Shown here: piece after piece, positions 1,213-35,471 of the stretch
Numbering within the stretch: the stretch's first letter is position 1
Layout: every line of letters begins with the position of its first letter
DNA from: a virus
Direction: 5' to 3' (one strand)
Length of the DNA: 40,350 nt
IMG/VR virus record: IMGVR_UViG_3300014914_000012
Span: 1-40,350 of that record
The notes under the pieces: generated by a model
The model's database searches: none
Seen by the model: only the letters and a program-made list of their open reading frames with translations
Told to the model about the DNA's origin: nothing
Made by a program: the position numbers and the translations under genes

Positions 1213-4200
1213 TGTCAACAATAACACCAAAGCTGAAATTAACACAGCCTGACTATAGAGATCCACGTTGGGACCTGCCTATCAATACTGACCTGGGTAT
1301 ATTAGATGATGCACACGGCACTGTGGTGGGTGTGTACGAGTCTATTATTACTTCTCCAAGCCTAGTAGATTGCTTCATATACGATACCTCCAAGGATTCA
1401 GACGGTGGAGCTTGGCGGGATAGGTGCCAAACCTTATCGTGGTACAATGAGGAGTTGAACACAGCTGATAGAGGGAAGACCAGAAAATTCCCTGCTGTTG
1501 CCCTGATTGTTGCTGAAGCTGACAAGGTTACTATTTATGATATGACTGACCCAAGTTTGCCAATGTGGATGGTGTTCAACCAAGGTACCAATACCTACAT
1601 AAGATCTGAAACAATCTCTAGCGTGTTTATGCTGAACGGGAACTTGTTTGTTGGTGGCTCTACAATAGGCTCCTCATGGACATCTTTTATAGATGACAGG
1701 AACATAGCCAGCATATTGGCTTCTGTTACCGGTAGGAGAATAACGCTACCTATAAGCGGAAGGAACAACACGGACGGAATTTACAGGGTGCAAGATGTTG
1801 AAATTTTGCTGGTCAACTCTAACGTGAATGACGTAGCAATGACCATCCTACCCACTGCCCTTGTGGACCCTGCTACTGGTCTTCCAGTGCCCACGATTGC
1901 TGTTGCCACGGATGGTGGAGTTAGTGTTATTGATGGCCCTGCAGGTGCTGGCACTGTGGTGCATATTACCTATGGAGGGAGAGGAAATAACAATGTAGCC
2001 TTTTCGGATGAATATAGGCTTATAGCCAATCTGACACTGTATCAGCAAACATTTATTATGGACATTCCACTTGCGAATGTACTGACAAACCCACCAACAG
2101 GGGCCGATATTTATTCTAACACTACCGTGCCAGCACTATTCACAAGCTCAAATAGGGCATTAAGTGCTGGGGTATATGGTTCTTTATATGGCTTGGTCTT
2201 TCTCAAAGAGAACCCACTACTCCCCTCAGCTGGTATGGTCAACTACTTGACTGACTCCTACCTCTCTGGATGGATGCAGGGTGACATTAAGATGGCTGCC
2301 CTTGCTGATACGGTAGAGGGTGATATTGTTAATTTATGGACCGATCCTCCAGACAATATGGATGCAGAATGGGCTGATAATCTTGATGGGTCGTACACTG
2401 CCGATGGCTCACAAGGAGGCGCTATTACTCTATGGAATAACGCTTCATTAGGTGTGGGTACTGAAAAATCCGTATTTGTCACTGTTAGTGGTTTTGCTGG
2501 AGGCAGTCTTACTGTTTACCTCGGCTCCACCAATACACTTACGATTACCAGCGACGGAACTCACCAACTCACTGGAGTAGTAAGCGGTGATGGGATAGGG
2601 TATGTCCAAGGCAATGCTACATTTATTGGCACTGTGAGTAATATAATACAGCAATCTCCAGTTAATGACCGATCAGTCAACAACAACCCTCTCCAGGTAG
2701 TTGGTACAATTACCAAGACTGCTGTCAATACTGGTGCTGACCTTGTGGCATACTCTGGGTTTGGGACCGTGGCACAAGGATTGTCATACATTGAGCAACC
2801 TTACAATGCTGACTTGGATTTTAGTACAGGTGATTTTTATGTTATGTCGTGGTTCAAGGCTGTTGCAACGTTGGACACCTTACTCGAAAGAAATGATTCA
2901 GGAATAGTAGGCCCAAGCATTAGAATTGACCTTGATGCTTCGGGGTATGTGCGAGTTGTAATAGGGGGAGACATCGTTACAGGCACTGTTGATTATGCAA
3001 CCAACAGCCTTCATATGTTGGTTGTAAAAAGGGTTTCAGGCGTAGGGTATATTTTTATTGATGGAGTGCAGGTTGCTACAGGGCCAGCTGCTGATTCGAT
3101 AATCAATGCCACAGCTGTTACAAGAATTGGGCTAAGGCTCAATGACGCTAATTCATGGGGAGGGATTTTGTCCCTTTTCCGCATGGGTGCGGGTGCCCCT
3201 TCGGACGAACAGATTGAGATGATTTACAACCAAGAGAAGAAACTGTTTGAGGCGGATGCCTCCTTTCTCCTACCTGACAATGACGTACAGGATGTTGATT
3301 TTGACGATATAGAAAAAACACTGGTTGTTGCTACTGCCCTGGGGGTAAACAAGTATCGGGATCTGATTAGGATAGGTGAGGTAGAGTTTGAGGCACCAGA
3401 CGGTCCTACCACCCTGCCCATACTCAATGCCAATGCAGTATCGGCTAATAACGGTGCCGTAGCCGTAACTACTTCTGTTGAAGGTGGGATTGCTCTACCT
3501 GCGTTGAACATACGGGAAGAGTTCACTGCATTAGAAGGTAAGATACCAGACCTTAGTGGGGGCGTTACTGAAATTCAACTTACTCCTACAACAGATCCAG
3601 AACAGGTTGAAGGTAAAGTATTTTACGATGCAGACAAGCACGCACTAAGTGTTTATTCAGATGTGGATATGACCTTGAACTTTGGGCAGGAGGAGGTAAT
3701 TAGGGTTATCAATAACAGTGGTGCAGTTATTCCTAATGCCTCTCCGGTACAAGTTACTGGAGCCTCAAGTGGTCTGCCCGAAGTAGCTCTTGCACAGGCA
3801 AATTCATTCACATCGATGAGAGTTCCGGGGATCACTACCCATGAAATCCCTATAGGACAAGAGGGGTTTATAACCCATGCTGGATCATTGGGAGGTGACT
3901 TTTCGTCATGGGGGATTGGGTCTCTTCTCTTCTTATCTGAGTCCATTGCTGGAGGTTATACCGATAGCCCTCCTTCTAAGGCAACCCGACTGGGGCAGGT
4001 TACAAGCGCAAACACCTTTTTGGTAAATATAGGAGTTGGCGTAGAAATACCAGCTGTTATAGCTTTTATGAATGAGGCAGTTGATCCAATAGGTGATATA
4101 ACAGCTACACCACAAGATGTAATAAACTACCAGGATGGTGGAGCCAATGGCTTAACGTCTGACTGGTTAGCTGGTTATATATCTCTCCCTGTCGATGGTA

Positions 4201-4484
4201 TCTATAGGGTTACTTTTAATTTGAGCATTAACTTTACTGCTGTGTCACAAGACCCAAGGGAACTAAATCTACAGTTGTATAACTCCACTCTTGCTTCTGA
4301 AGTGTTTACCATTAAGAATGTTATATCAAAGGAAGCTATAACATTTGCTGCTACTATATCAGCTCCTTTCACTGCAACAGCTGGAGATTATAAATTCAGG
4401 ATAGCTACGGGTGCGGGTGAGATCATAGAAGACGTTATTTACAACTTCACTTCATACGATATCCAATCTGTACACATTAGATAA
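1212..4484 (+). CDS. Long tail fibre / receptor-binding protein with LamG-like domain
   Basis: A 1090-residue protein. The start at 1212 was chosen because it overlaps the previous stop as TAATG; an upstream in-frame start at 1185 lies inside the previous gene. The N-terminus (PDYRDPRWDLPINTDLGILDDAHGT, residues about 12-36) resembles virion-attachment regions of fibres. Residues about 523-680 look like a concanavalin A/LamG-type lectin fold: a FYVMSWFKA strand, then RIDLDASGYVRVVI and YIFIDGVQV. The last 130 residues (YISLPVDGIYRVTFNLS and following) resemble a C1q/TNF-like jelly roll, a common receptor-binding tip. These fold calls are pattern-based. Function inferred: host recognition by a sugar- or surface-binding fibre. 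Confidence 0.75.
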   Translation: MSTITPKLKLTQPDYRDPRWDLPINTDLGILDDAHGTVVGVYESIITSPSLVDCFIYDTSKDSDGGAWRDRCQTLSWYNEELNTADRGKTRKFPAVALIVAEADKVTIYDMTDPSLPMWMVFNQGTNTYIRSETISSVFMLNGNLFVGGSTIGSSWTSFIDDRNIASILASVTGRRITLPISGRNNTDGIYRVQDVEILLVNSNVNDVAMTILPTALVDPATGLPVPTIAVATDGGVSVIDGPAGAGTVVHITYGGRGNNNVAFSDEYRLIANLTLYQQTFIMDIPLANVLTNPPTGADIYSNTTVPALFTSSNRALSAGVYGSLYGLVFLKENPLLPSAGMVNYLTDSYLSGWMQGDIKMAALADTVEGDIVNLWTDPPDNMDAEWADNLDGSYTADGSQGGAITLWNNASLGVGTEKSVFVTVSGFAGGSLTVYLGSTNTLTITSDGTHQLTGVVSGDGIGYVQGNATFIGTVSNIIQQSPVNDRSVNNNPLQVVGTITKTAVNTGADLVAYSGFGTVAQGLSYIEQPYNADLDFSTGDFYVMSWFKAVATLDTLLERNDSGIVGPSIRIDLDASGYVRVVIGGDIVTGTVDYATNSLHMLVVKRVSGVGYIFIDGVQVATGPAADSIINATAVTRIGLRLNDANSWGGILSLFRMGAGAPSDEQIEMIYNQEKKLFEADASFLLPDNDVQDVDFDDIEKTLVVATALGVNKYRDLIRIGEVEFEAPDGPTTLPILNANAVSANNGAVAVTTSVEGGIALPALNIREEFTALEGKIPDLSGGVTEIQLTPTTDPEQVEGKVFYDADKHALSVYSDVDMTLNFGQEEVIRVINNSGAVIPNASPVQVTGASSGLPEVALAQANSFTSMRVPGITTHEIPIGQEGFITHAGSLGGDFSSWGIGSLLFLSESIAGGYTDSPPSKATRLGQVTSANTFLVNIGVGVEIPAVIAFMNEAVDPIGDITATPQDVINYQDGGANGLTSDWLAGYISLPVDGIYRVTFNLSINFTAVSQDPRELNLQLYNSTLASEVFTIKNVISKEAITFAATISAPFTATAGDYKFRIATGAGEIIEDVIYNFTSYDIQSVHIR

Positions 4485-4498
4485 GGGGCATACACAGG

Positions 4499-5245
4499 AT
4501 GAACAAAGGACTAGCACTACTCACAGGGCTATTGTTGGCGGCAGGTTGCGCCAAGGTTACTCCCCCAACACCAGAGATGATACAAGCACAAGCACATACC
4601 GATATGGTAAAGCAGACTTGCTATGAGACTTTCTTAGAAAAGTCCGTAGCAGATGCGCAGGTGCTTGCTGGAATACCTGATGAAAGTAAAGTAATGGTCA
4701 TCCTGCTTAAACAACAGGGTGACTTCAGTAAGTCTATGATGTCACTGGCCACGGGTAATTCATTAGATCCTTGCAGTGGAGGGAGTAACCTTTATGATGT
4801 ACAGATTGCAGAACTTAAAGCACAAGCGGTTATTGCGGCAAAGTATATTGACGGTTCCCTTGGGCTTGCTAAGTGGGTTGTCGGTGGTGTTACTATGGCT
4901 CATGTGCTTGATGATTTGGGCGGTGTTGCTTATAATCTGTCTGGCGGTTCCAAGATGAATGTCAATAGCCAGAATACAGGCAGCTACAACGAGCATGTAG
5001 GCGGCAATATTGAGAGCGGTGGAACTACCGTAACAGACAACAGTGAGAACTGCGATGGATGTGAAACACCCTCCTTTGGAAGTGTTGCCAGCATGGGGGC
5101 GGATGAAGAGGCAGAGATACAGCCTGTGGAGACTGTTGCCGATTGTATGACCAACCCTCCAGGCGGTGTGTCTGGTGCTGGCAAACCTATGTATAACAGT
5201 ACTTATTCATGTGAGACTTATTTCACAAAGTTTGGTGGAGGATGA
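4499..5245 (+). CDS. Predicted lipoprotein, unknown function
   Basis: A 248-residue protein. The N-terminus is a lipoprotein signal: MNKG, a hydrophobic stretch LALLTGLLLAAG, then Cys17 in the lipobox LAAGC. The mature part has several cysteines in pairs (CDGC near residue 185), a hydrophobic stretch LGLAKWVVGGVTMAHVL near residues 120-137 and an Asn/Gly/Ser-rich segment at about 148-180. It directly follows the tail fibre and begins a run of five genes with secretion or membrane signals. Lipoproteins in this position in phages sometimes block superinfection or are involved in lysis; nothing in the sequence decides between these. The stop overlaps the next start (ATGA). Confidence 0.65.
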   Translation: MNKGLALLTGLLLAAGCAKVTPPTPEMIQAQAHTDMVKQTCYETFLEKSVADAQVLAGIPDESKVMVILLKQQGDFSKSMMSLATGNSLDPCSGGSNLYDVQIAELKAQAVIAAKYIDGSLGLAKWVVGGVTMAHVLDDLGGVAYNLSGGSKMNVNSQNTGSYNEHVGGNIESGGTTVTDNSENCDGCETPSFGSVASMGADEEAEIQPVETVADCMTNPPGGVSGAGKPMYNSTYSCETYFTKFGGG

Positions 5246-5454
5246 AGATAACAGAAAAGATACTTTGTAAGATAGTAATCACATGGTGCCTTATGGTGGC
5301 CCTGTTCTGTATCGTGATACTTTTAACGCAGTGTCAGAAGATGGTTGTTACAATTGATAGCCCTATGGATAAGGATACACAAGGGTTGGTAATAAAGACT
5401 GTTGTAGAAGACGATGAGTACTTTAACAAACTCAAAAAGGAGAAAGGAAAATGA
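5242..5454 (+). CDS. Small single-pass membrane protein
   Basis: A 70-residue protein: a basic N-terminus (MKITEKILCK), one strongly hydrophobic segment at about residues 11-29 (IVITWCLMVALFCIVILLT), Cys31, then a charged tail ending KLKKEKGK. The topology would be N-in with a 40-residue outer tail. The cysteine after LLTQ is not in a good lipobox because Gln is at the -1 position. It overlaps both neighbours by 4 bases. A holin or spanin-like role is possible given the location and the absence of another recognised lysis gene, but no family is recognisable. Confidence 0.55.
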   Translation: MKITEKILCKIVITWCLMVALFCIVILLTQCQKMVVTIDSPMDKDTQGLVIKTVVEDDEYFNKLKKEKGK

Positions 5455-6089
5455 GGAAACTTTTGTTGGCGTTAGCACTAATGATTTTAACTGCTACCAT
5501 GGTACAGGCAAGACCAATGGTGGGGGACACCGTTACCCTGGATGATATAGGAACATCAGGAACAACCAGTGGGGGTGAGTTTCATCTTACCATAGACGGG
5601 GGTTTTGACTTCATGGCTTTCTGTTTAGAACTGGACGAGTCTATAAGCAGAAACGGTACATACTTTATCGACTCCATAGGTCAGTACGCTACCAGTGGGG
5701 GCAACAACAGCGATGGCTCCACACCGGGTAAAGACTTTATCGGGGTAGAGACATCCTTCGTGATGGACTCATACGCAAGTGGTAATTACGCTACAGGATG
5801 GGGCGGGGCAGACACTGTGGCAAACTACCTGCAGAGATCTATATGGGAATTGGAGGAGGAGACCGCCGGGTACAGTTCCACGTTCTTCACTGCTCTTCAA
5901 TCTGCGGGGGTGTACACCATGAGCGGTAACTATGACGTCTATGTCATAAACCTTGTAGATAAGTTTGGTAATAACAAACAGAGCATGCTGGTTGCTGAAA
6001 GTAACCCGGTACCAGAACCTGCTACCATGATATTATTCGGAACCGGTATACTGGGGCTTGCTGCTATCAGACGGAGACAGCGGAGGTGA
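5451..6089 (+). CDS. PEP-CTERM sorting-domain protein
   Basis: A 212-residue exported protein. It has a Sec signal peptide (MRKLLLALALMILTATMVQA, probable cleavage before RPM) and a textbook PEP-CTERM tail at about residues 187-212: VPEPAT, a hydrophobic helix MILFGTGILGLAAI, and a terminal RRRQRR cluster. In known systems exosortase cleaves after such a motif and the protein goes to the cell surface or biofilm matrix. The middle region has FCLELDE near residue 56 and LQRSIWELEEE near residue 128, a pairing seen in many bacterial PEP-CTERM proteins and reminiscent of thioester domains (Cys and Gln forming an internal bond); that link is inference. It overlaps both neighbours (4 bases at each end), has a good ribosome site (AAAGGAAA region before 5451), and is clearly part of the phage operon. 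Carrying it implies a host with exosortase. Confidence 0.85.
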   Translation: MRKLLLALALMILTATMVQARPMVGDTVTLDDIGTSGTTSGGEFHLTIDGGFDFMAFCLELDESISRNGTYFIDSIGQYATSGGNNSDGSTPGKDFIGVETSFVMDSYASGNYATGWGGADTVANYLQRSIWELEEETAGYSSTFFTALQSAGVYTMSGNYDVYVINLVDKFGNNKQSMLVAESNPVPEPATMILFGTGILGLAAIRRRQRR

Positions 6090-6325
6090 TAGGTGTAACT
6101 AGGATTGACTTAATCCAACGGGTGGCATATCTTCAGGGTAGGGTGGACCAGTTAAATGAAAGCATTGAAAACCTTATTGACGTTATTGACTCTCTCGATA
6201 ACCTTGTGGATCACCGGTTCTTGCGCACCAATGCCAGGGGAGAAGTTACACCCATTGTTACTGGAACCAACACCGTTAGAGGAGGTGGATTTAACGGTAA
6301 TAGTGGGGGTGGAAGAAACTACTGA
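6086..6325 (+). CDS. Small coiled-coil protein, unknown
   Basis: A 79-residue reading frame with a GTG start inside the end of the PEP-CTERM gene, preceded by GGAGG-like bases. The N-terminal half is a predicted amphipathic helix (LIQRVAYLQGRVDQLNESIE and on to residue 45), and the C-terminal 25 residues are Gly/Asn/Arg-rich and disordered. The 3' 170 bases also encode the start of the lipoprotein gene in another frame, so one of the two could be spurious, although nested frames are common in phage lysis and surface modules. No signal peptide. Function unknown. Confidence 0.45.
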   Translation: MIGVTRIDLIQRVAYLQGRVDQLNESIENLIDVIDSLDNLVDHRFLRTNARGEVTPIVTGTNTVRGGGFNGNSGGGRNY

Positions 6326-6533
6326 GTTCTGCGGGAATAAGATGCTTGAGTTGGGCATGTACAAGACATTCACCTTCAACCTTATAGCCAACTTCGGCAT
6401 CCAGTTTGGTTGTGCCCTGTATGAAATAGTAGATGGTAAAGTAAAGAAGTGTGACGTATACGTGGCCTGGGAATGGTATCTCCTGGACCACGAACTACGA
6501 CACTGTATGGGGTACAAGGATGTTTGGTATTAG
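6156..6533 (+). CDS. Predicted zinc-metallopeptidase-like lipoprotein (HExxHxxG)
   Basis: A 125-residue protein with a lipoprotein signal: MKALKTLLTLLTLSITLWITGSC, lipobox ITGSC with Cys23. Near the C-terminus is DHELRHCMGY (about residues 111-120), which contains HELRH, an HExxH zinc-binding motif, followed by C-M-G, as in HExxHxxG zincins. The domain is small (about 100 residues), similar in arrangement to short phage and prophage metallopeptidase-like lipoproteins. The likely location is the periplasmic face of a membrane. It begins inside the preceding frame (170-base overlap) and ends tail-to-tail with the minus-strand gene, with stops overlapping by four bases and no terminator seen between. 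Possible roles are cell-wall or spanin-like processing or cutting of a host surface protein; the sequence does not decide. Confidence 0.6.
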   Translation: MKALKTLLTLLTLSITLWITGSCAPMPGEKLHPLLLEPTPLEEVDLTVIVGVEETTEFCGNKMLELGMYKTFTFNLIANFGIQFGCALYEIVDGKVKKCDVYVAWEWYLLDHELRHCMGYKDVWY

Positions 6534-8609: not shown

Positions 8610-8942
8610 CTAATACGCCTCCTTGTGAATACTCCTGGTTTCCTGGACCCACACGCCATTTCTGTTTACTACGGTGTATGTATTGGTGTGGTGGGAGTAG
8701 TCATATTCCTTGTTCCATTTCTCAGTAGGTTTGCCTGTCACTACTCGTTCATACTTTTCGGCAACATCTATCTGTCTGTCTAGGTTATTGCGCTGCTGAA
8801 ACTGAACCTGGGATACAGCCCTAAGCTCTGCTCCAGAACAACGCTCGTAAGTGTAAGGGTTACAGGCTGCATTTGCTTCCACATACCCTACCAGGAGGTA
8901 GAGGGCTATTATTGCTCCTGCTGCTATGAATATTGCTTTCAT
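8610..8942 (-). CDS. Small exported protein
   Basis: A 110-residue protein with a clear Sec signal: MKAIFIAAGAIIALYLLVGYVEANA, probable cleavage after ANA, leaving a mature protein of about 85 residues that starts ACNPYTYERCSG. Two cysteines nine residues apart could form a disulphide. The rest is charged and helical (QFQQRNNLDRQIDVAEKYE), then a beta-like tail with YTVVNRNGVWVQETRS. It is the first gene after a good sigma-70 promoter, within a promoter-leader cassette also found before the gene at 20136. The function is unknown; a periplasmic role in the infected cell, for example exclusion, is a guess. Confidence 0.6.
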   Translation of the reverse strand: MKAIFIAAGAIIALYLLVGYVEANAACNPYTYERCSGAELRAVSQVQFQQRNNLDRQIDVAEKYERVVTGKPTEKWNKEYDYSHHTNTYTVVNRNGVWVQETRSIHKEAY

Positions 8943-15254: not shown

Positions 15255-15926
15255 CTATTCTCCTTGTATCTTGTTAATGATGTAGCCTATATCAGGCTGT
15301 GTTATTTTGGCCAATTTTCCTGACCTGTCTTTTGCAATATACTGCAAGTCGTTATCAGTCTGCAGGTACCTGTAGTAGGAGCCGTCTGCCAGTTTACCCA
15401 TTCGCATGACAAACAGCTCATCAAAGAAGAATGGCAAGCTCTGCAGTAATAACTGTCCAGGTACCCCAGGCTTATAGGTGACTGCCTTTGTTACTTCGTC
15501 TACCTCCTTTTTTAGCTTGCAGCTAAAATATACGTGTTTAGATGTAAGGTCCCTGAAATTACGTATAAGGATGGCCATATCATCAGCCATAACACCATAC
15601 GCCTGTCTAGGATCTTTAGTTTTTTTCTTCTCTTCTGTAAGCAAGACTTCGGCTATTTCAGACAAGCTATCTATACAGACTGTAGTGTACTGGTTAGCCT
15701 CCTGGGATTGTGACAACCACTTGTAAGCATCCAGACACTCTTTCATAGTATTGACCACTATAACAGGTAGCTTTTCATCTGCCAGCGATAGCAGGCCAGC
15801 TTCAGCTGATATAATTATAGGGTTTGGTGCAGTCTTGCACAGAGTAGTCTTACCCATACCAGCCTCACCATAGATGCAGAAATTCACACCATTCAAAGCT
15901 ATGTCATCAGTGTAAGTAATTTTCAT
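15255..15926 (-). CDS. Sak4-like RecA-fold ATPase (AAA_24)
   Basis: A 223-residue ATPase. Walker A is YGEAGMGKTTL (Gly20, Lys26, Thr27); Walker B is TTVCIDSLSE (Asp86). A later block DDMAILIRNFRDLTSKHVYFSCKLKKE is typical of the AAA_24 family, and FFFDELFVMRM is close to the C-terminus. Members of this family in phages (Sak4) have a RecA-like core and support single-strand annealing together with an SSB. Here the neighbour is a DUF669 protein, with four bases between them. The start overlaps the upstream stop (ATGA). Confidence 0.82.
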   Translation of the reverse strand: MKITYTDDIALNGVNFCIYGEAGMGKTTLCKTAPNPIIISAEAGLLSLADEKLPVIVVNTMKECLDAYKWLSQSQEANQYTTVCIDSLSEIAEVLLTEEKKKTKDPRQAYGVMADDMAILIRNFRDLTSKHVYFSCKLKKEVDEVTKAVTYKPGVPGQLLLQSLPFFFDELFVMRMGKLADGSYYRYLQTDNDLQYIAKDRSGKLAKITQPDIGYIINKIQGE

Positions 15927-21191: not shown

Positions 21192-23084
21192 ATGATAGAC
21201 AAATATAACAAAGATGTCACACCAGCAATTCCTGCAGTAATAGAAAAAAATATACCACAAGCTTTAAAAGACCTGGACCAATGGTGCCTATGGCGTTATA
21301 CCTGGAAAGGTACCAAGTGGACAAAACCACCTCTAAATGAACACGGCGCACGTGCCAACCACGCTACAGTAAACCTACCCTTTAAGACAGTAGTCGCAAT
21401 TCACAGAGCTAATCCAAGTGTCGGCATTGGCTTCTCATTGCGTGATACTGATGACTTTTGCGGCCTGGATATAGACAACTGCCTAGATAAAGACCAGCAC
21501 CTCCTGCCCGAATTTAAGCCCCTCATGGACGATTTACCGGATACAGTAGTAGAAATTTCTCCATCTGGACAGGGCATTCGTGTGTTAGGCACTGGGAAGA
21601 TTCCCAACATAAATAACTCGAAAATTGCCCAATTTGAGGCATATAGCTCAGGCCGATACTTGACTATAACCGGCAACACAAACGGCACGGCTGGCAATCC
21701 TCTCATGGATCTGACCAAGTATGTGGCCAAGCATTCCAAGCCAGTCAGCTCCTTAAGATCTAAGGTCACAGGCATACCGGATATAGATATAGAACACTTC
21801 ACCCACTATAAAACCATCCTGGAGCGCATACCTTATATGCCTAACGAGGGTTATCATGAATGGCTAGATGTTGGCATGATTATCCATTATGAGCTGGCAG
21901 GGTCCAAGAGAGGGCTGGAGATCTGGACCGAGTGGAGTACCAGCAGTTCTCACTATGACCCTTACGAGTGTGGCCAGAAGTGGTTGACCTTCAAAGGCAA
22001 CAAAAAACCCTTGACCATAGGTACAATGCTACAACGTACCAAGGTCTATGAGGGTGAGATTATGGCACATGACCTGAGTAGCCAGCGCATCAGCGCAGCT
22101 ACCTTGTTAAAGACCAAAGCCAAGCCTAGGAAGTTTGTAGTAGAACCACTGTTCTTGAATGAGTCTTTCAATATGATCCATGCACCCACTGGATTAGGTA
22201 AGACCAACTTTGCCATGAGTCTGGCCGCCTGTTTAGCTGAGGGTAAAGACTTTTTGAAGTGGAAAATACCAGCCAAAAAGCGTATACTATATATAGACGG
22301 TGAGCTGTCTATGAATGGATTACAAAGGCAGGTCCAGAACAATGCTGGAGCGTGTGATATTAGTACCATAACTGGCGTATTCGATTTTATTACACCAGAT
22401 CTTTTACCAAATGGTGGCATGGAGAACTTGACAGATCCATTAAAACAAGCCTGGATTAATAGGCATATAGCAGACCTCAAGCCCCATGTAATAGTATTTG
22501 ATAGCCTGCTGACTTGTTTTCAAGGTACCACAGAGAGCCAAGAGACTTGGGAAAGTATACAGGCGTGGATGATAAAGCTACGTAAGGACGGTATCTGTGT
22601 TATCCTTATTCACCATGATAATAAGAGTGGCAAAGAGCAGGCAGGCTTTTCCAACAAGACCATAGTTATGAACCAAATAGTCCACCTTACAGCTACTCCA
22701 GAGCATGACCAGTCTACAGGCATGATGATGCACTTTGAGTTTATGAAGCACAGGGACTTGATAGGTGCAGAAATAGAGGTGTTTGAACTAGGCTACCGTA
22801 CCAAAGGGGGTACACTCAATAAGATAGAATGGTACTGGAACAAAGAGAATGAGGCTCAAACCAATAGTGACATAGAAATGTATAGAGATGGACACACATT
22901 TGCAGAGATAGCTAAGGAAAGGGGTGTAGGTGTACCAGCTATTAGTAAGAGGTTTAAAAAGTATGTAGTAGATGGTATGATCAGTGAGGATGAGCTACCA
23001 AAGCCAGGGCAATACAAACGTAAGCTGAAGGGTATGGCTGTTTTTGATAAGCCTACCAGTAAAGAAGATGAGAGTAATAAATAA
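21192..23084 (+). CDS. PrimPol-helicase replication protein
   Basis: A 630-residue protein joining three modules. Residues about 20-180 are an archaeo-eukaryotic primase-type domain: GLDIDN (Asp93, Asp95), SPSGQGIRVLG, FEAYSSGRYLTITG (Glu149). Residues about 210-290 resemble a primase C-terminal (PriCT-2) domain (YHEWLDVGMIIHYE). Residues 315-540 are a RecA-like helicase: APTGLGKT (Lys337), ILYIDGELS, VIVFDSLLTCF and VILIHHDNKSG. The tail has an HTH (FAEIAKERGVGVPAISKRFKKY). It could prime and unwind at the phage origin, and it is encoded right beside the candidate origin repeats. The start has AAAAGG upstream. Confidence 0.85.
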   Translation: MIDKYNKDVTPAIPAVIEKNIPQALKDLDQWCLWRYTWKGTKWTKPPLNEHGARANHATVNLPFKTVVAIHRANPSVGIGFSLRDTDDFCGLDIDNCLDKDQHLLPEFKPLMDDLPDTVVEISPSGQGIRVLGTGKIPNINNSKIAQFEAYSSGRYLTITGNTNGTAGNPLMDLTKYVAKHSKPVSSLRSKVTGIPDIDIEHFTHYKTILERIPYMPNEGYHEWLDVGMIIHYELAGSKRGLEIWTEWSTSSSHYDPYECGQKWLTFKGNKKPLTIGTMLQRTKVYEGEIMAHDLSSQRISAATLLKTKAKPRKFVVEPLFLNESFNMIHAPTGLGKTNFAMSLAACLAEGKDFLKWKIPAKKRILYIDGELSMNGLQRQVQNNAGACDISTITGVFDFITPDLLPNGGMENLTDPLKQAWINRHIADLKPHVIVFDSLLTCFQGTTESQETWESIQAWMIKLRKDGICVILIHHDNKSGKEQAGFSNKTIVMNQIVHLTATPEHDQSTGMMMHFEFMKHRDLIGAEIEVFELGYRTKGGTLNKIEWYWNKENEAQTNSDIEMYRDGHTFAEIAKERGVGVPAISKRFKKYVVDGMISEDELPKPGQYKRKLKGMAVFDKPTSKEDESNK

Positions 23085-23109
23085 TGTCCATGCAACAAAA
23101 AAATGCACT

Positions 23110-23147
23110 GTTACCAAATGGTAACTTAGTTGTTACCGTTTGGTAAC
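23110..23147. repeat. Tandem GTTACC-N4-GGTAAC palindromes
   Basis: Two copies with identical six-base arms and loops AAAT and GTTT, centres 22 bases apart (about two helical turns). The second is followed by ACTTTTTT. As DNA this looks like a paired operator; as RNA, the arms can also pair in an alternative way (second arm of copy 1 with first arm of copy 2). Confidence 0.6.
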
Positions 23148-23171
23148 ACTTTTTTGGGGGGTGTTTTTTTA

Positions 23172-23401
23172 GGCAACAATGGAAACAATGGTGCGCAAAA
23201 GGGTGTATGTATATAATATTATTATTATTATTTTAAAGAGGCCCCAGGCAACAATGAGGAAACAATGAGGCAACAATGGCAACAATGGTATAGCATTGTT
23301 TCCTCATTGTTGCCCCATAGTTGCCTGGGCAGGAAACAATGGGAAACGTAGTAGCAGTAAGGGTTTCAGCCGGTTTAGAGGGCATTGTTTCCATTGTTGC
23401 C
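23172..23401. repeat. Nested inverted repeats built from GCAACAATGG units
   Basis: The outer arms are 23172-23190 and 23383-23401 (19 bases, exact). The inner arms are 23247-23267 and 23294-23314 (21 bases, exact). Further GCAACAATGG units lie between, and CCCATAGTTGCC occurs after both right-hand arms. The block could fold into a large cruciform or be bound by several protein copies. Confidence 0.8.
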
Positions 23402-23455
23402 CATAGTTGCCCCCCAAAAAATATGACCAAAGTCGTACAGAAAGAGGTATAGGCT

Positions 23456-23872
23456 ATGACGGATACAGGTACCAGATTAAACACAATGGCACTAAAAGCC
23501 TTTCAAGATGGGGAGGAGATAGAGCGCAGCGCTAGAGCTATGGCTGATATCATACCCCATCTGGATTGGTTAGGTAAAACCAGGATGCACATAGCAGCTT
23601 ACTTCAAGGTACCTACATTCTTATTGGAAAAGGCTATGAGTATCAATGAGAATCTTAACTTCTTGGTACTGTTGATAGAACAGGAGGCCCTGATAGAGGG
23701 TTTGGAAGAGTTGAGGTTTATGCAGCTGGATAAGAAGGCCAACCCTATGTTGGCTAAGTTGAGGTTTGCAGCTCTGCATGGTGTCACTGAGCGTACAGCT
23801 GAGAAGAAAATAGAGGATGGTGTAACCAAGGTGCCTATTATTAATTTTAGTGTGAGAATGGAAGATGATTAA
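23456..23872 (+). CDS. Probable terminase small subunit
   Basis: A 138-residue, mainly helical protein located where small terminases usually are: after the replication gene, before the large terminase. It contains a possible HTH-like region (WLGKTRMHIAAYFKVPTFLLEKAM, about residues 40-62) and a C-terminal basic and beta segment (TERTAEKKIEDGVTKVPIINFSVRM). Small terminases recognise pac/cos DNA, and the repeats just upstream are a natural target. The call rests on position and fold pattern, not a signature. Confidence 0.6.
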   Translation: MTDTGTRLNTMALKAFQDGEEIERSARAMADIIPHLDWLGKTRMHIAAYFKVPTFLLEKAMSINENLNFLVLLIEQEALIEGLEELRFMQLDKKANPMLAKLRFAALHGVTERTAEKKIEDGVTKVPIINFSVRMEDD

Positions 23873-24230
23873 CGGCAGGAATAAAGGTGCTGCAGCGGAG
23901 AGGGAGGCAGGTAAGTGGTTAAAGGAGCAGTTTAACCTACTTAAAGCCCCTGAAAGAAACCTGGAACAGGTCCGGTCAGGTGGATATGATTTGGTAGGGT
24001 TCTACCCATTCGCTGTTGAGGTTAAGAGGTGTGAGGTGTTGGCTTTACGTGATTGGTGGCTGCAGGTAGTGCAGGCTACGGATGGTTACATGGTGCCAGT
24101 GGTAATGTACAGGCAGAATAGGTGCAAGTGGCAGTTCCTGGTATCAGCCAAGAATATTGGCCTGGATACAGGCTACATACACCTAGAGGCCAGAGAATTT
24201 GTTATGTGGGCCAAGGCTGTAATGACATGA
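23865..24230 (+). CDS. PD-(D/E)XK-type nuclease (resolvase-like)
   Basis: A 121-residue protein. RNKGAAAEREAGKWLKEQF at the N-terminus gives the first acidic motif. SGGYDLVGFYPFAVEVKRCE contains Asp47 and the Glu-x-Lys (EVK) catalytic pair. LRDWWLQVVQATDG and PVVMYRQNRCKWQFLVSA complete the fold. This matches small phage nucleases of the Holliday junction resolvase/VRR-NUC type often found next to terminases, which may trim branched DNA before packaging. It overlaps the preceding gene by 8 bases. Confidence 0.75.
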   Translation: MINGRNKGAAAEREAGKWLKEQFNLLKAPERNLEQVRSGGYDLVGFYPFAVEVKRCEVLALRDWWLQVVQATDGYMVPVVMYRQNRCKWQFLVSAKNIGLDTGYIHLEAREFVMWAKAVMT

Positions 24231-24244
24231 AAGGAGATAATGTG

Positions 24245-24381
24245 ATGATTAATATTAAAAATATACCAGAGGTGACTTCTTCGAAGTCAGCAACATTATG
24301 GATATAGTACTCAGTAAGCCGCAAGCCGAGGCTATGAGTTCTAAGGCTAAATCCATAGCAGTCGTTGCTGGCTTCGGCTGA
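24245..24381 (+). pseudogene. Terminase large subunit, N-terminal fragments out of frame
   Basis: A good ribosome site (AAAGGAG) precedes ATG 24245, whose frame reads MINIKNIPEVTSSK and then stops. The next frame (ATG 24298) reads MDIVLSKPQAEAMSSKAKSI then AVVAGFG and stops at TGA 24379-24381, exactly inside the expected terminase Walker A (AGFGSGKT). The rest of the motif, GSGKTEFALFRM, is in the third frame from 24384. Both shifts are in the same sense: each corresponds to one missing base (or two extra, or -1 slippage). Confidence 0.7.
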
Positions 24382-24416
24382 CTGGTTCAGGTAAGACTGA
24401 GTTTGCCTTATTCAGG

Positions 24417-25544
24417 ATGTTGGCTACCATGTTTGAGAATCCTAAAGCCGATATGCTGTATCTAGCGCCTACATACCCACTGATTAGAGATATTTGGTAC
24501 CCTAAGATTGAGTCTTTCTTAGATGACTTGGGACATGGGTACTTTATCAATAGGGGTGAGAATACTATCAAGGTGCAGGGAGCTGGTAAGATCTTTTGTA
24601 GGACAATGGAACACCCTGGTAGGATCATTGGTTTTGAAGTGTTGGACGCTTTTTTAGATGAGTTGGACGTGCTTACAGAGGATAAGGCCGTAGAGGTGTG
24701 GCGTAAGACTAAGGCCAGATGTAGACAGAAGATAGATGGTAAGCCTAATCAAATGTACGTTACCACTACACCAGAGGGATTCAAAGCCACGTATAAGCTG
24801 TTCAAAAAGGACCCCCTACCAGGATCACACCTAATACAGCTGAGTACATACAGCAATGCACATAACCTGCCAGACGATTACATAGATGAACTGAAAGACA
24901 ACTACCCTGCCAACCTCATAGAGGCGTACATAAATGGGGTGTTTATCAATCTTAAGAATATGCCAGTATGGGCTACCTATGATGAGAATAGTAACAATAG
25001 TAGAGAACGTGTTAAGAAAGCAGATACCCTCCTTGTGGGCATGGACTTTAATGTGGGCCGTGGTTGTGCTGTTATTTATGTCAAGCGTGGTTGGTCTGTA
25101 CACGCTGTGGATGAGATCTACAATAGTTACGACACACCCGACACAATCCGAGTACTTAATGAACGCTACCCAGAGCATGACATTACGGTGTACCCCGATG
25201 CCAGCGGAGGTAGTAGAAAATCAGTTAATGCTACCACATCAGATCTGGCTATCTTGCGTGAAGCTGGGTACAAAGTAAAGACCTTAAAGAAGAATCCCAA
25301 CATTAAGGACAGGGTAATGGCTACTAATAGGATGTTCTGCAATGGCCATATGGAGAGGAACCTGTTTGTAAATAAGGATACGTGTCCAAGGTTGTCAGCT
25401 GCCTTAGTAGAGCAGATATATGATGACAATGGCCTACCTGAAAAGGGTATAGGCAAATACGATGATATGACGGATGCAGGTAGCTACCCCATAGCTTATC
25501 TGTATCCTATTAAGAAGTCCAACACTAAGAGAATGGAGTTATGA
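24417..25544 (+). CDS. Terminase large subunit (main open frame)
   Basis: A 375-residue frame starting MLATMFENPKADMLYLAPTY. The frame is open from before 24384 and carries GSGKTEF in front of this ATG. Features: YLAPTYPLIRDIWYPK; Walker B FEVLDAFLDELDV (a DELD acidic pair near residue 80); coupling motif VTTTPEGF; and the RNase H-like nuclease domain LVGMDFNVGRGCAVIY, TVYPDASG and KYDDMTDAGSYP, with acidic residues in each strand. This is the packaging motor ATPase-nuclease. The N-terminus, including Walker A, is broken by frameshifts described separately. The stop overlaps the portal start region (ATGA). Confidence 0.88.
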   Translation: MLATMFENPKADMLYLAPTYPLIRDIWYPKIESFLDDLGHGYFINRGENTIKVQGAGKIFCRTMEHPGRIIGFEVLDAFLDELDVLTEDKAVEVWRKTKARCRQKIDGKPNQMYVTTTPEGFKATYKLFKKDPLPGSHLIQLSTYSNAHNLPDDYIDELKDNYPANLIEAYINGVFINLKNMPVWATYDENSNNSRERVKKADTLLVGMDFNVGRGCAVIYVKRGWSVHAVDEIYNSYDTPDTIRVLNERYPEHDITVYPDASGGSRKSVNATTSDLAILREAGYKVKTLKKNPNIKDRVMATNRMFCNGHMERNLFVNKDTCPRLSAALVEQIYDDNGLPEKGIGKYDDMTDAGSYPIAYLYPIKKSNTKRMEL

Positions 25545-25546
25545 TT

Positions 25547-27046
25547 ATGGCATTCGAATATGAGACTAAAGATGTAGGAGGCGGTACCAAGGTTGTGGCC
25601 GGTAGGAATGATGCTGATTCAGTTACTAGTAAGAGTGCTGATGTACAAGAGTGGCAAGACAGATCCAGGCTACCCAGGACATTGATGCAAGGCACCTATG
25701 GTATGAAAAAAGCCGGTAATGAGTTCCTGCCTAAGCATAATCTGGAGTCAGACCCTGCTTATATAGGTAGGCTCTCCAGATCCACACTGCTCAATGCTTT
25801 CAAAAAGACTGCCTCATTCCTGTCTGGTCAGGTGTTCCAGTCTGATATTGTGTTTGATGATGGTGTGGACCCTATCTTTGAGGAGTGGGCCAAGGCGATT
25901 GACTCTAAGGGTAATAGCCTGGATGTATTCGCTAAGAGGGCCTTTCAGAATGGTACCTCTAAGGGTGTATCTCACATCTTTATAGACGTGCCTGTCAAGT
26001 CTGCCGATATTGTCAGCCAGCAGGATGAGAAGGACGCAGGCATAAGGCCCTATTTCAAAGAGATTAAGCCAGAGGATGTACTAGGTGCTATTGTTGATGA
26101 GGATGGTTTCTTGGTACAGGTCAGGATAGCTGAATCAATAAAGAAAAGGGTAGGCAGATACGGTACAAAGACAGTACAGAGGGTACGTGTATTAGAGCCT
26201 GGCGTATGGGAGCTGCACGAGATAGACAGTACAGGTGCTGCTGTTGTAGTAGACAGTGGTGTGTTTTCCGTGCCCATTATACCTTTTGTGCCCTATATCC
26301 CAGGTGATGAGTGGACCATTATTACAGGTGAGACTCCGATCATGGACCTTGCAGAATTAAATTCTAAGCACTGGCGTAGTATGTCAGATCAGGACAACAT
26401 TCTGTCAGTAGCCAGGGTGCCTATTCTGTTTGGTAAGCATATAGAGATAGAGAAAATGCCTGTAGGCACTGCTACTATGGTTACTTCTGAGGAGGATAGC
26501 GCAGATATGAAATTTGTGGAGATCCAGGGTAATGCTATCAATGCCGGTAGGGAGGATATTAAAGAAACTGAGGCACAAATGGCACTGTATGGGCTGCAGC
26601 AGCTGGTACCACGTACAGGCAATATCACAGCTACAGAGAAAGCTTTGACCAGTGCAGAGAGTAACAGCTCATTGGGTACTTGGGCTACAGAGTTTGAGTC
26701 TGTACTCAATGCTTGTTTTAAGATAGCTGGTCAGTTTATGAACGTGGAATGGCCTGATAATGGGGTAGCTGTCAACAAAGAATACAACTTTGGTGTAGCA
26801 GATCCTTCGGAGCTGTTGGCTATCCTTAAATCTCAGGAGCAGGGTGTTATATCAGCGCAGGCTACCTTTACAGAGTTCAGGCGTAGAGGTATCTATGACG
26901 AACATCTTACCTGGGATGATATGGAAGCTGATTTAGAGCAGGAAAAGCGTGACAGTGTGGACATGGCACGCATGGCAGGCGCTGCCTTTGGTGATGCTCC
27001 TGGTGATGCTGGAGGTGACGATAATACAGGGGATAAGGACAAGTAA
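25547..27046 (+). CDS. Portal protein (DUF4055-like)
   Basis: A 499-residue protein beginning MAFEYETKDVGGG. The start at 25547 was preferred to an in-frame ATG at 25541 because GGAG lies eight bases upstream of it; the earlier ATG overlaps the terminase stop. The conserved blocks SRLPRTLMQGTYGMKKAG, HNLESDPAYIGRL and LLNAFKKTASFLSGQVF fit DUF4055 portal proteins. It would form the dodecameric ring at the head vertex, through which DNA enters. The C-terminus is acidic and flexible (GDAGGDDNTGDKDK). It overlaps the MuF gene at TAATG. Confidence 0.85.
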   Translation: MAFEYETKDVGGGTKVVAGRNDADSVTSKSADVQEWQDRSRLPRTLMQGTYGMKKAGNEFLPKHNLESDPAYIGRLSRSTLLNAFKKTASFLSGQVFQSDIVFDDGVDPIFEEWAKAIDSKGNSLDVFAKRAFQNGTSKGVSHIFIDVPVKSADIVSQQDEKDAGIRPYFKEIKPEDVLGAIVDEDGFLVQVRIAESIKKRVGRYGTKTVQRVRVLEPGVWELHEIDSTGAAVVVDSGVFSVPIIPFVPYIPGDEWTIITGETPIMDLAELNSKHWRSMSDQDNILSVARVPILFGKHIEIEKMPVGTATMVTSEEDSADMKFVEIQGNAINAGREDIKETEAQMALYGLQQLVPRTGNITATEKALTSAESNSSLGTWATEFESVLNACFKIAGQFMNVEWPDNGVAVNKEYNFGVADPSELLAILKSQEQGVISAQATFTEFRRRGIYDEHLTWDDMEADLEQEKRDSVDMARMAGAAFGDAPGDAGGDDNTGDKDK

Positions 27047-29271
27047 TGAATAAAGAGCAGACGATAACCACATATAGGTACGTCAATCAGCGGTATGCTC
27101 TTGATCGTTTTGAGGATGCCGCTTTGGAAGATCTTAGTAAATACTATACTACAGCCCGTAAGAAAACAGAGGCTGCTATCAATAGGGCTATAAAGAAAAA
27201 TCTGGACCTGAGATCTACCAACAGGCTCAAAGCTCTTTTGGCAGAGATTGACGATAAAATAGAGCAGCTGACAGAGGCTGTTACTAAACCTGTGGCTGAG
27301 GCAGCAGGAGAGGCAGGAGCGTATAGTTATCGTAATACTAATGATATTTTATCATGGGACGGTGCTGTTGATAGCTTTGATAATGTGGCTATGTCAGCTA
27401 GTCAACTAGCTACCATTGCCGCAACAGAGACACTAGGAGGGCATACGTTAGATGGTTGGTTGTGGTCTGCTCTTAATGAGGAGAACCAAGCACTAAAGGC
27501 AGAGATAGCACAAGCCAGGATTAGAGGCATAAGCTATAAAAAGATCATGGCAGAACTACCCGCCAGATACAACAACCTGCTGGCAGGTGCCGATACTAAG
27601 CGTAATCTGGAGACTGTGGTTAAGTCCTACATACAGTCGATGAATGCTAAAGCACACAAAGATATTTATGAGGCGAATAAAGATGTTATTAAAGGGGTTG
27701 AGTGGTCTGCTATCATGGAGAATGGTAACACCAAAACGGGGCGAGGGACGTGTTCACGCTGTATGTCACTCGATGGCATGGAGTATGATACTATTGACAG
27801 TGGTCCTAATTGTCCGTTGCATCCAAGGTGTAGATGTATGTATCTGCCTGTTACGAAAAGTTGGAAAGAACTTGGTTTCACTGATGAAGAGACAGAGGAA
27901 CTAGGTACCAAGTATAATAAGTGGTATGAGCGTGACATGACAAAGGAATATTATGTACGTGGGCCTAAGAAAGGGCAGCTTAAACCACCATCCAGGCAGA
28001 TATTGGACTACGGAGAGACTAGCGATGACTTTGCAGGCTTTTGGGCTACTAAACCTGAGTGGTGGCAGGATAATGCCATAGGTCCACGGAGGGCAGATCT
28101 AGTTAGGGCTGAGGTTGTAGATTTTGATGAATTGGTGATCTATGATAAGAATTACCAAAAGCTAGTAAACAAGAAACTAGGCAAAGACTATGAATTGGGT
28201 GATCAGATTTTAGTAGAGGATTTGTATACTATCTATGGTGGCAGACCTATACCAAAGGGTACCTCTAAACCAGTACCAAAACCGGCACCTAAGCCTGAAG
28301 TATTTAAAACTAAGCACCCAAGCGCCCAAGCATTGTATGATAACGCCCCAAGTAAGTACCAGACACAGTATTACAGAAACGCTTTAGCTGCTGATAGTGA
28401 TTATGTGTTGAATAAATTAGATACATCAGAAGGTCCTTACTATCTGGACAGTAGTAAGCTTATAAACATGAATCCCGGACAGGATTCCATACAAAGTGCT
28501 GTAACCTTCATCCATGAGTTTGGGCATAGGACTGACTACAAATACTATGATAAGATGGCCCCAAAATGGGGTGAGACAACCTTATACAGAAATAGTATCA
28601 CGGCTACCCCCAAGTTCCAGGAGGCTTCTAAACTGGACGCCACCTGGATTAATAATGCACAGAAGAGGGAAAAGTCGTTGTTTCCTCCACCAAAAGGTAA
28701 GAGGTACAGTAGACGTACTTGGGACGCATCTAGGGAGGATTACAGGATGAACACTTACGGTGATATAACCCTTATAAAAGAGGGTACTGTCACAGAGAAG
28801 TTAAATGCTATGGTAACAAAGGGGCTTAAGGATGAAGACCAATATTTACTAGATATTACCAACAATACTATAAAAGAGTTCCGAGACAATATAACTGGAG
28901 GGCTTATTACAGAGGCTGGAGTGAATCACGCTGAACAGCAGGCACTGATAGCCCTACATAGTTATGCTAAAAGTGGAGCTGACAGCTTTGTATTACGTGA
29001 TTGGTTAGACTCTTTTAAGAGTCTATTTGCCACCCACAATATAACGCAGGACACATTATTACTGGCTGATTCTATAGGTGGTACAACAGCAGAGAAGTTC
29101 TTCGGCTACGGACATGGGCACGCCTATTACACGGCATACCCTACTCGTAAGGCTTCCGAGACTTTTGCTAATATGTTTGCATTATCGGGCGATCCTAACG
29201 CAGTGACCTTTTATAAAAAGTACCTGCCCAAACAGTTTAAGTTATTCACAGAGTTTACAGAGGTGTTATAA
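27046..29271 (+). CDS. MuF-type minor head protein fused to a zincin-like domain
   Basis: A 741-residue protein, twice the usual size for head morphogenesis proteins. Residues about 1-300 form the Mu F/SPP1 gp7-type domain, with the metal-binding block RGTCSRCMSLDG (Cys236, Cys239) and NCPLHPRCRCMYL near residue 260. A proline-rich linker (KPVPKPAPKPE, about residues 406-416) is followed by about 320 residues of unrelated sequence. That part holds FIHEFGHRTD (HExxH, His490-His494) and later KASETFANMF (Glu705), consistent with a zinc metallopeptidase such as the lethal-factor-like type. Domain fusions of this kind to MuF are known as phage-borne polymorphic toxins. It would be packaged in the head. 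Confidence 0.8.
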   Translation: MNKEQTITTYRYVNQRYALDRFEDAALEDLSKYYTTARKKTEAAINRAIKKNLDLRSTNRLKALLAEIDDKIEQLTEAVTKPVAEAAGEAGAYSYRNTNDILSWDGAVDSFDNVAMSASQLATIAATETLGGHTLDGWLWSALNEENQALKAEIAQARIRGISYKKIMAELPARYNNLLAGADTKRNLETVVKSYIQSMNAKAHKDIYEANKDVIKGVEWSAIMENGNTKTGRGTCSRCMSLDGMEYDTIDSGPNCPLHPRCRCMYLPVTKSWKELGFTDEETEELGTKYNKWYERDMTKEYYVRGPKKGQLKPPSRQILDYGETSDDFAGFWATKPEWWQDNAIGPRRADLVRAEVVDFDELVIYDKNYQKLVNKKLGKDYELGDQILVEDLYTIYGGRPIPKGTSKPVPKPAPKPEVFKTKHPSAQALYDNAPSKYQTQYYRNALAADSDYVLNKLDTSEGPYYLDSSKLINMNPGQDSIQSAVTFIHEFGHRTDYKYYDKMAPKWGETTLYRNSITATPKFQEASKLDATWINNAQKREKSLFPPPKGKRYSRRTWDASREDYRMNTYGDITLIKEGTVTEKLNAMVTKGLKDEDQYLLDITNNTIKEFRDNITGGLITEAGVNHAEQQALIALHSYAKSGADSFVLRDWLDSFKSLFATHNITQDTLLLADSIGGTTAEKFFGYGHGHAYYTAYPTRKASETFANMFALSGDPNAVTFYKKYLPKQFKLFTEFTEVL

Positions 29272-29463
29272 ATGAAGCTAACAGGCAAAACATGGGCGAC
29301 AATTAACGTAGAGTATTACAAAAAGTTTCGAGAATATTTCCCTACACTAAACTTAACAGAGGAGCAGACTAAGTATGTATTTGATGAGGCAGTAAAGGCA
29401 GTAGAAGGTAGTAGAGGTGCTGTTTCCTCCAATGAGGTATATAGTACAAAAGCAGATTACTAA
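29272..29463 (+). CDS. Small protein downstream of the MuF fusion
   Basis: A 63-residue protein starting directly after the MuF-zincin stop. It is charged and helical (TEEQTKYVFDEAVKAVEGSRG) with an N-terminal MKLTGKTWATINVEYYKKFREYF. In polymorphic-toxin operons an immunity gene often follows the toxin; this gene has the right place and size, but nothing in its sequence proves that role. The end (ADY, stop, then CACAGGAGGTAG) is repeated after the next gene. Confidence 0.5.
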   Translation: MKLTGKTWATINVEYYKKFREYFPTLNLTEEQTKYVFDEAVKAVEGSRGAVSSNEVYSTKADY

Positions 29464-29476
29464 ACACAGGAGGTAG
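29455..29476 (+). repeat. Intergenic direct repeat, copy 1
   Basis: The bases GATTACTAAACACAGGAGGT and the following AG recur at 29671-29693 with one extra A. Each copy carries the end of one gene, its stop and the ribosome site of the next. Confidence 0.75.
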
Positions 29477-29483
29477 CAACAAG

Positions 29484-29678
29484 ATGAATGTTAGTGAGAT
29501 ACTTAGTATTTTACGCAACCCGTATGGGATAGGTGAGGCTATCCAAAGACAAGCAAGAGTAGAGGGGGCATACTTAATTGAGACCCAAGAGCGTGACCTG
29601 AAAGAGTTAAGAGAAAGGGTTCTTGCCTTTAAGAAAGCTATGGAGCATATCTTAAAGGCTTCAACAGTTGATTACTAA
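29484..29678 (+). CDS. Small helical protein, apparently chimeric
   Basis: A 64-residue protein, mostly helical (IQRQARVEGAYLIETQERDL). Its last 14 residues are KAMEHILKASTVDY. The 27 bases encoding KAMEHILKA (29636-29662) occur again exactly inside the scaffold gene (30232-30258), in the same frame sense, and its end (GATTACTAA and ribosome site) repeats the end of the previous gene. It seems to have been assembled from neighbouring sequences. Function unknown. Confidence 0.5.
   Translation: MNVSEILSILRNPYGIGEAIQRQARVEGAYLIETQERDLKELRERVLAFKKAMEHILKASTVDY
29636..29662 (+). repeat. 27-base direct repeat shared with the scaffold gene
   Basis: An exact match to 30232-30258. The shared sequence encodes AMEHILKA in both genes. 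Apart from the repeat, the two genes are not visibly alike. Confidence 0.8.
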
Positions 29679-29693
29679 AACACAGGAGGTAGT
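29671..29693 (+). repeat. Intergenic direct repeat, copy 2
   Basis: The second copy of the 29455-29476 stop/ribosome-site module, with one additional A. It precedes the scaffold gene. Confidence 0.75.
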
Positions 29694-29696
29694 GAG

Positions 29697-30398
29697 ATGA
29701 AATACGTATTAACTGAAAATGGTAACATTAAAATGACCGATGGCAAGCCTACTGTAAAAGATGGTGATAAAGAGTTCGGTATTGATGCCATAGGTGCGCA
29801 GACCAAGATAACCACCATTACAGCTGAGAGTAACGACAGACGTAAAAAGCTTGGAGAGGCTAACACATCCTTGGAAGCGTTCAAGGGTATCGAAGACCCT
29901 AAAGCAGCTATAGCAGCTCTGCAGAAGGTAGGTTCTATGGATAAGGACCAAGCAGCTGCTCTGGATAAGATGAAGCTTACAGTAAATACAGCCTGGGAAG
30001 CTAAAGAAAAGGAATGGGGCACAGAGAAAGAGACCCTCAACAGTAAGCTGTTTGATGCTACTGTAGGCGCTCAATTTGCTACCAGTAAAGTGATCAAAGG
30101 TACTGTGCTGCCTGCTGATATAGCCAAAGCAACCTTCGGTAAGCACTTCAATGCTGATGGTACAGCAAATGATGCAGCTGGTAATCAGATCAATTCCATA
30201 GCCAAACCTGGGGAGCCTGCCGGTTTTGATGAAGCTATGGAGCATATCTTAAAGGCTTATCCTGACAGAGCCTCTATTATGAAAGGATCTGGAGCCAACG
30301 GCAGTGGCGGTTATCAAACAGGTGACGGTCAGGGAGGTACTTCGGTCAAGACTGCCGGTCAGAATATCGCTGAGGGCCTGAAAGCACAAGGCATTTAA
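29697..30398 (+). CDS. Head scaffolding protein
   Basis: A 233-residue protein immediately upstream of the major capsid gene. It begins MKYVLTENGNIKMTDGKPTV, then a long helical charged region (SNDRRKKLGEANTSLEAFKG, residues 44-120) and a flexible Gly-rich tail (GSGANGSGGYQTGDGQGG). Helical protein plus flexible tail and location are typical of phage scaffolds, which guide procapsid assembly and are then lost. It fits the DUF6651-type layout. GGAGGT lies before the start. Confidence 0.75.
   Translation: MKYVLTENGNIKMTDGKPTVKDGDKEFGIDAIGAQTKITTITAESNDRRKKLGEANTSLEAFKGIEDPKAAIAALQKVGSMDKDQAAALDKMKLTVNTAWEAKEKEWGTEKETLNSKLFDATVGAQFATSKVIKGTVLPADIAKATFGKHFNADGTANDAAGNQINSIAKPGEPAGFDEAMEHILKAYPDRASIMKGSGANGSGGYQTGDGQGGTSVKTAGQNIAEGLKAQGI
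30232..30258 (+). repeat. 27-base direct repeat, copy in the scaffold gene
   Basis: The exact counterpart of 29636-29662. Here it lies in the C-terminal part of the scaffold protein (EAMEHILKAYPD), which is presumably the source copy because it is embedded in a longer gene. Confidence 0.8.
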
Positions 30399-30434
30399 GG
30401 CGTAACTATCTGGTATTATTGACGATAAAAAAGG

Positions 30435-30462
30435 TTGCAATTACTCCAATATTCGGTATAAT
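30435..30462 (+). promoter_or_regulatory. Sigma-70 promoter before the major capsid gene
   Basis: A -35 TTGCAA (30435-30440), a 16-base spacer and a perfect -10 TATAAT (30457-30462). It would start an mRNA near 30469 and give extra capsid message. The strong hairpin-terminator at 30565-30615 lies within its leader. Confidence 0.72.
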
Positions 30463-30479
30463 GCGATCTATTAAAATGT

Positions 30480-30566
30480 CCACAATTGAGCCTGAATAGG
30501 CACTTTGTGGGCCATAAACTATGAGTAAGGCCACCTGAATAGGGGCCTTACGCTCTGCTGAATAGC
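30480..30566 (+). promoter_or_regulatory. Capped-hairpin array in the major capsid leader
   Basis: Three GAAT-loop units lie in a row: CCTGAATAGG at 30491-30500 (outer pairing CCACA 30480-30484 with TGTGG 30506-30510), CCTGAATAGG at 30534-30543 inside a perfect GTAAGGCC/GGCCTTAC stem (30525-30551), and GCTGAATAGC at 30557-30566. A related unit CCTAAACAGG (30581-30590) caps the terminator stem that follows. The repetition of stem-loop tips suggests an RNA element recognised by a protein. Confidence 0.6.
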
Positions 30567-30615
30567 GGCATACTTCACAGCCTAAACAGGCATACGTGAG
30601 GTATGCCGCTTTTTT
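30565..30615 (+). terminator. Strong intrinsic terminator just before the major capsid gene
   Basis: GCGGCATACTTCAC (30565-30578) pairs with GTGAGGTATGCCGC (30596-30609) with one G-U, followed by six T. It lies only 20 bases before the capsid ATG, between the promoter at 30435 and the gene, so capsid transcripts must read through it or be processed here. Confidence 0.82.
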
Positions 30616-30635
30616 CGTTTAAAGGAGATTTTATT

Positions 30636-31574: not shown

Positions 31575-31600
31575 GAAACTGTCCACGTAGTTCCATAAAG

Positions 31601-31630
31601 CCCTGCCCTCTCCTGGGCAGGGTTCTTTCA
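31601..31630 (+). terminator. Terminator after the major capsid gene
   Basis: CCCTGCCC (31601-31608) pairs with GGGCAGGG (31615-31622) across six bases, followed by TTCTTTC. The stem is strong and the tail moderately T-rich, so partial termination would lower expression of the later genes relative to capsid. Confidence 0.75.
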
Positions 31631-31644
31631 CAGGAGTTATACAC

Positions 31645-31893: not shown

Positions 31894-31898
31894 ACGCT

Positions 31899-34481: not shown

Positions 34482-34497
34482 ATAAGGAGGCAACAAA

Positions 34498-35448: not shown

Positions 35449-35471
35449 AACTTTTACTCACAGGTAAAGAA

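Follow-up and report, generated by a model that had tools for sequence, protein, structure and literature searches.

The main finding is that a gene in the late operon of a bacteriophage encodes a protein with a predicted thioester domain (TED) and the signal by which bacterial exosortases recognise their substrates. The gene lies at 5451..6089 (+) in a 40,350-base IMG/VR virus record, the whole of which is here called the window, and its 212-residue product was defined from the open reading frame, from family profiles and from a Shine-Dalgarno sequence just 5' of the ATG. We consider it probable, at roughly 0.6, that the product is synthesised late in infection and displayed via the exosortase of the host as a covalently reactive surface protein.

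Sorting signal and cellular homologues

At its N-terminus the protein has a predicted Sec signal peptide (residues 1 to 20, 5451..5510, +; MRKLLLALALMILTATMVQA), apparent from the sequence and hydrophobicity and modelled as a helix over residues 2 to 15, and so, on these grounds, it has the signal peptide that PEP-CTERM proteins carry. The C-terminus (NPVPEPATMILFGTGILGLAAIRRRQRR) holds the sorting signal proper (6006..6086, +), made up of VPEPAT, a hydrophobic helix (190 to 211 in the model) and an Arg cluster. A preliminary description of this DNA had proposed a full PEP-CTERM signal on a phage product and a comparison with the TIGR02595 HMM, and the proposal is borne out, the tail exceeding the curated cut-offs of both PF07589 (31.7 bits against 20.7) and TIGR02595 (27.9 bits against 16). 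In a six-frame search of the whole window record this tail is the sole TIGR02595 match (E 1.2e-8). The N-terminal domain reached the cut-off of no named NCBIfam family.

Around 60 cellular homologues, from Planctomycetota, Verrucomicrobiota, Thermodesulfobacteriota, Myxococcota, Acidobacteriota and Pseudomonadota, were found, and most end in exosortase-type tails of the PEP-CTERM, VPDSG-CTERM or related kinds. Exosortase (PF09721) is present in 17 of 20 sampled genomes with homologues and absent from all four phage records searched for it, among them the window record. The domain is sparse in the phylum of G006, a Verrucomicrobia MAG, since at E 1e-6 only two of 145 sampled genomes of that phylum match, G006 itself being one of them. 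Set beside known exosortase substrates (TIGR02595, PF07589), the window protein is alike in its complete tripartite signal with a signal peptide and in having cellular homologues that occur in exosortase genomes, but is unlike them in that the phage encoding it has no exosortase of its own and in an N-terminal domain that stays below the NCBIfam cut-offs.

The thioester domain

Relatives were sought with a DNA pattern for LQx[AS]IWxLExE across genomes of 84,980 species, and 66 suitable ORFs were obtained, 60 of which carry FC[LVIMT][EDQ] or a close variant 54 to 88 residues before the Gln; Cys58, Gln177 and the tail all lie outside the search pattern. In an alignment of 55 sequences (A3; 52 cellular and three phage) C58, W132, G42 and E137 do not vary, and Q177 is kept in all 54 rows having a letter there. 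Cys58 of FCLE (5622..5624, +), on the third strand, is the predicted thioester Cys, and Gln177 of KQSML (5979..5981, +), on the last strand and aligned with YQNLL of 5a0l, the predicted bond-forming Gln. Between them QRSIW (Q128 to W132; 5832..5846, +) appears, from the 5a0l alignment, the model and A3, to be the counterpart of the TED helix motif TQxxPhiW.

When the A3 profile was compared with PDB sequences, 5a0l (the SfbI thioester domain) was among five weak matches (E 1.2), with its thioester Cys, TQxxPhiW and bond-forming Gln in register with C58, Q128/W132 and Q177. The match disappears with a trimmed profile, and so the sequence evidence for a TED is weak when taken alone. Similarly the Pfam TED model PF08341 gave no match to the window protein at E 0.1 and matched four of the 55 family members weakly (best E 0.0097), and therefore the domain is called TED-fold and distant from PF08341. 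The TED motifs were defined by Walden et al. (2015), who found TEDs exclusively in Gram-positives (PMC4450167). FCLE has the form [YFL]C-hydrophobic-hydrophilic and Q177 is a conserved last-strand Gln aligned with that of SfbI, while the weak Gln motif PhiQzetaPhiPhi is only partly matched because a Lys and not a hydrophobic residue precedes Q177. The preliminary description had taken FCLE and LQRSIW as a possible Cys-Gln thioester pair. Both motifs are present and its Cys stands, but its Gln was probably the wrong one, because Q128 sits in the TQxxPhiW-type helix motif and it is Q177 that aligns with the SfbI bond-forming Gln; in Cpa the Gln and Trp of TQxxPhiW are reported to be dispensable for the thioester bond (PMC4450167).

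The AlphaFold2 model of the window protein (pLDDT 82.8, pTM 0.75) runs from four main strands through three helices to a further two strands; C58 falls on the strand at 52-58 and Q177 on that at 176-182. It amounts to a family prediction because its input alignment consisted of the family. Foldseek gave 5a0l, the SfbI TED, as its best match (E 9.3e-4, probability 1.00), and ranks 1 to 10 in VIA-align are all TED entries (Z 8.1-10.2 over 129-153 residues), the next row being at 5.1. A structure search of BFVD with the model returned nothing at E 0.001. With the predicted TED fold at the top of both the Foldseek and VIA lists, the earlier idea of a thioester-type protein gains support, and the body of the protein (residues 26 to 183; 5526..5999, +) is predicted to be a thioester domain, which is more specific than what was first proposed.

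Two classes of TED have been described (Miller et al. 2018; PMC6194298). The window protein is like those of class I (SfbI, Cpa, CpTIE; PF08341) in its predicted fold of a barrel and three helices, and in having the strand Cys in [YFL]C-hydrophobic-hydrophilic, a TQxxPhiW-like helix motif and the last-strand Gln. In contrast to them it carries a PEP-CTERM anchor signal rather than LPXTG, consists of a single domain without an isopeptide or ester stalk, shows only 6-15% identity in structural alignments with no Pfam TED match, and has its relatives in Gram-negative phyla and phages.

The phage and the gene neighbourhood

The window encodes terminase, portal, capsid, tape measure, polymerase, helicase and ligase. 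The phage is a siphovirus, whose portal is about 35% identical to portals of Xanthomonas, Stenotrophomonas and Pseudomonas phages; a search for the host by portal homology, across 299 genomes from the phylum of G018, gave a single match and was abandoned. A place in a phage late operon, as first suggested for the gene, is supported by the terminase, portal, capsid, tape measure and polymerase genes around it. A second contig of the same phage, L123, matches window positions 21394-36752 at 99.99%, an overlap that stops short of the TED gene. At the end of that contig, positions 15346-15428 jump to window 36343-36425, inside the tape measure gene, and this jump reflects a repeat sequence or else an error of assembly.

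Upstream of the TED gene are a lipoprotein-like exported protein (4499..5245, +; LLAAGC near its N-terminus) and a 70-residue membrane protein (5242..5454, +; assigned from the ORF and its hydrophobicity). The gene had been described as overlapping its neighbours on both sides, and the upstream overlap holds, since an ATGA at 5451-5454 joins the TED gene to that of the 70-residue protein and a strong Shine-Dalgarno sequence precedes it (AAGGAGAAAGGAA). The downstream overlap is weaker. The ORF concerned (6086-6325) has a GTG start, with a purine-rich tract abutting the start codon, and the overlap is less certain because this ORF itself shares 170 nt, in a different frame, with the ORF at 6156-6533, so that at least one of the two may not be a gene. 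The product of the latter (6156..6533, +) appears from the ORF and its hydrophobicity to be an exported lipoprotein-like protein with HELRHCMGYKD (HExxHxxGxxD), for which family profile searches gave nothing above cut-off. Exported-looking hydrophobic N-termini occur in four of the five ORFs at 4499-6533 and, among the ORFs checked outside that region, only in 8610-8942 (-). The GC content of the TED gene equals that of the remainder of the contig.

Relatives in other phages

Single-sequence scans with the window protein gave no relatives in IMG/VR and merely chance matches in ParA in INPHARED, and a scan with the ligase found nothing. The hit in Acinetobacter phage HFM1 (H32) arose by chance, lying antisense to the gene. 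The nearest homologue is one of three PEP-CTERM proteins encoded by a T4-like phage (L061/L131), itself recognised from a late sigma factor, a gp32-like protein, thymidylate synthase and terminase. It shares 34% identity with the window protein along its length and forms one clade with it in the tree (support 100/91), which argues that the TED gene has been maintained in phages without loss of its residues. An exported HExxHxxGY protein is encoded close to the TED gene in each of the two phages, at 6156-6533 in the window and, with HEFEHCQGYTE, at 7836-8420 in L131; the two have little in common beyond the motif.

Three further phage sequences are motif- or structure-level candidates, because, when the profile was built from the cellular members only, it picked up the window and L131 proteins and missed all three. 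One (L041) has a T4-like capsid on its contig, and its model (pLDDT 70, from an input alignment that included the family) places TEDs in all of the top eight VIA positions (Z 8.4-10.0, next 2.7). Another (L300), on a contig with neither of the hallmark families tested, carries YCID, IQGVLW and IQDLL, and its candidate gene directly precedes a second PEP-CTERM gene (3827-4612) whose product is 42% identical over 159 residues to the second PEP-CTERM protein of L131/L061 (4996-5808), indicating a shared domain. The third is gp179 of Tunturi_5, a jumbo phage of Acidobacteriota in culture with its host Tunturiibacter psychrotolerans X4BP1, with a PEP-CTERM score of 24.3 bits against 20.7 and an hhalign value of 96.9% to which the tail contributes part; gp179 goes unmentioned in the Tunturi_5 paper. 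A second PEP-CTERM-tailed protein of that phage (L301, PP885688) is encoded at 1608-2204 (-).

More widely, at least about 100 IMG/VR contigs have genuine-looking PEP-CTERM tails, in recurrent families of which three have 17, 17 and 10 members among the matches listed, and in two contigs (L134 and L191) the PEP-CTERM gene shares its stretch with a terminase. Host DNA may be part of some of the contigs in this set, and a scan of IMG/VR for VPEPAT gave mostly chance matches among those listed. As several unrelated phages carry such genes, the phage PEP-CTERM protein is a recurrent trait and not unique to the window.

Proposed mechanism and alternatives

From its position the gene would be expressed late in infection. 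Its product would be exported by Sec, and the PEP-CTERM tail would then be sorted by the host's exosortase. In the single extracytoplasmic TED, Cys58 and Gln177 would form an internal thioester, which a partner nucleophile, probably a lysine amine or a matrix group, could open to give a covalent join at Gln177. The infected cell may in this way become coated with a covalent adhesive, and either stick to its neighbours or the matrix or have its receptor sites covered. By analogy, the nearest functional precedent is the plasmid-borne TED adhesin required for efficient pLS20 conjugation (PMC8092201), which is likewise a TED surface protein on a mobile element, but of class II, in a Gram-positive host, on a plasmid and with no PEP-CTERM signal. 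A broader proposal is that several unrelated phage lineages of exosortase-bearing bacteria display covalently reactive thioester proteins via the host exosortase, in some cases with another PEP-CTERM protein encoded alongside as a partner, so forming a viral module dedicated to the cell surface. This we put forward tentatively, as somewhat less than an even prospect.

The same anchored TED could instead serve exclusion and not adhesion, blocking or covalently occupying the receptor sites of the infected cell against superinfection. Small exported or membrane proteins often act as exclusion factors, and both the surface anchoring signal and the cluster of exported proteins suit such a role, yet the gene position suggests late expression, when exclusion helps less, and we regard this as unlikely. 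That some phages have two or three PEP-CTERM genes might point to a decoy, an abundant late substrate saturating the host enzyme and so blocking the sorting of host proteins, with the TED incidental; a decoy would have no need of a complete TED fold with invariant Cys, Gln and Trp, such as two distant phages both conserve, and is very improbable.

A location in or on the virion, where the protein would bind cells or matrix and the tail would merely route it through the envelope, could account for a gene just downstream of a tail fibre-like region with a LamG-like domain. However a Sec signal with a C-terminal membrane helix is atypical of tailed-phage virion proteins and the window protein has no PHROG match, making this the least probable of the readings. 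Nor does it seem at all likely that the gene is a passenger with no phage role, recently captured from a host or brought in by a chimeric contig. Cellular homologues do exist and the second contig leaves the gene uncovered, but its start overlap, strong ribosome site and GC content tie it to the rest of the contig, its nearest tree relative is in another phage, and PEP-CTERM genes occur in further phages. A late, exosortase-displayed and covalently reactive surface protein is the reading we prefer.

Significance

The open-access library searched contained no report of exosortase substrates encoded by phages, nor of TEDs that carry exosortase signals, and thioester adhesins have so far been reported only from Gram-positive bacteria. 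If the proposal is true, phages plant covalent chemistry on the surface of the infected cell using the host's own sorting enzyme. An entire family of exosortase proteins in Gram-negatives would then likewise acquire a biochemical function open to testing.
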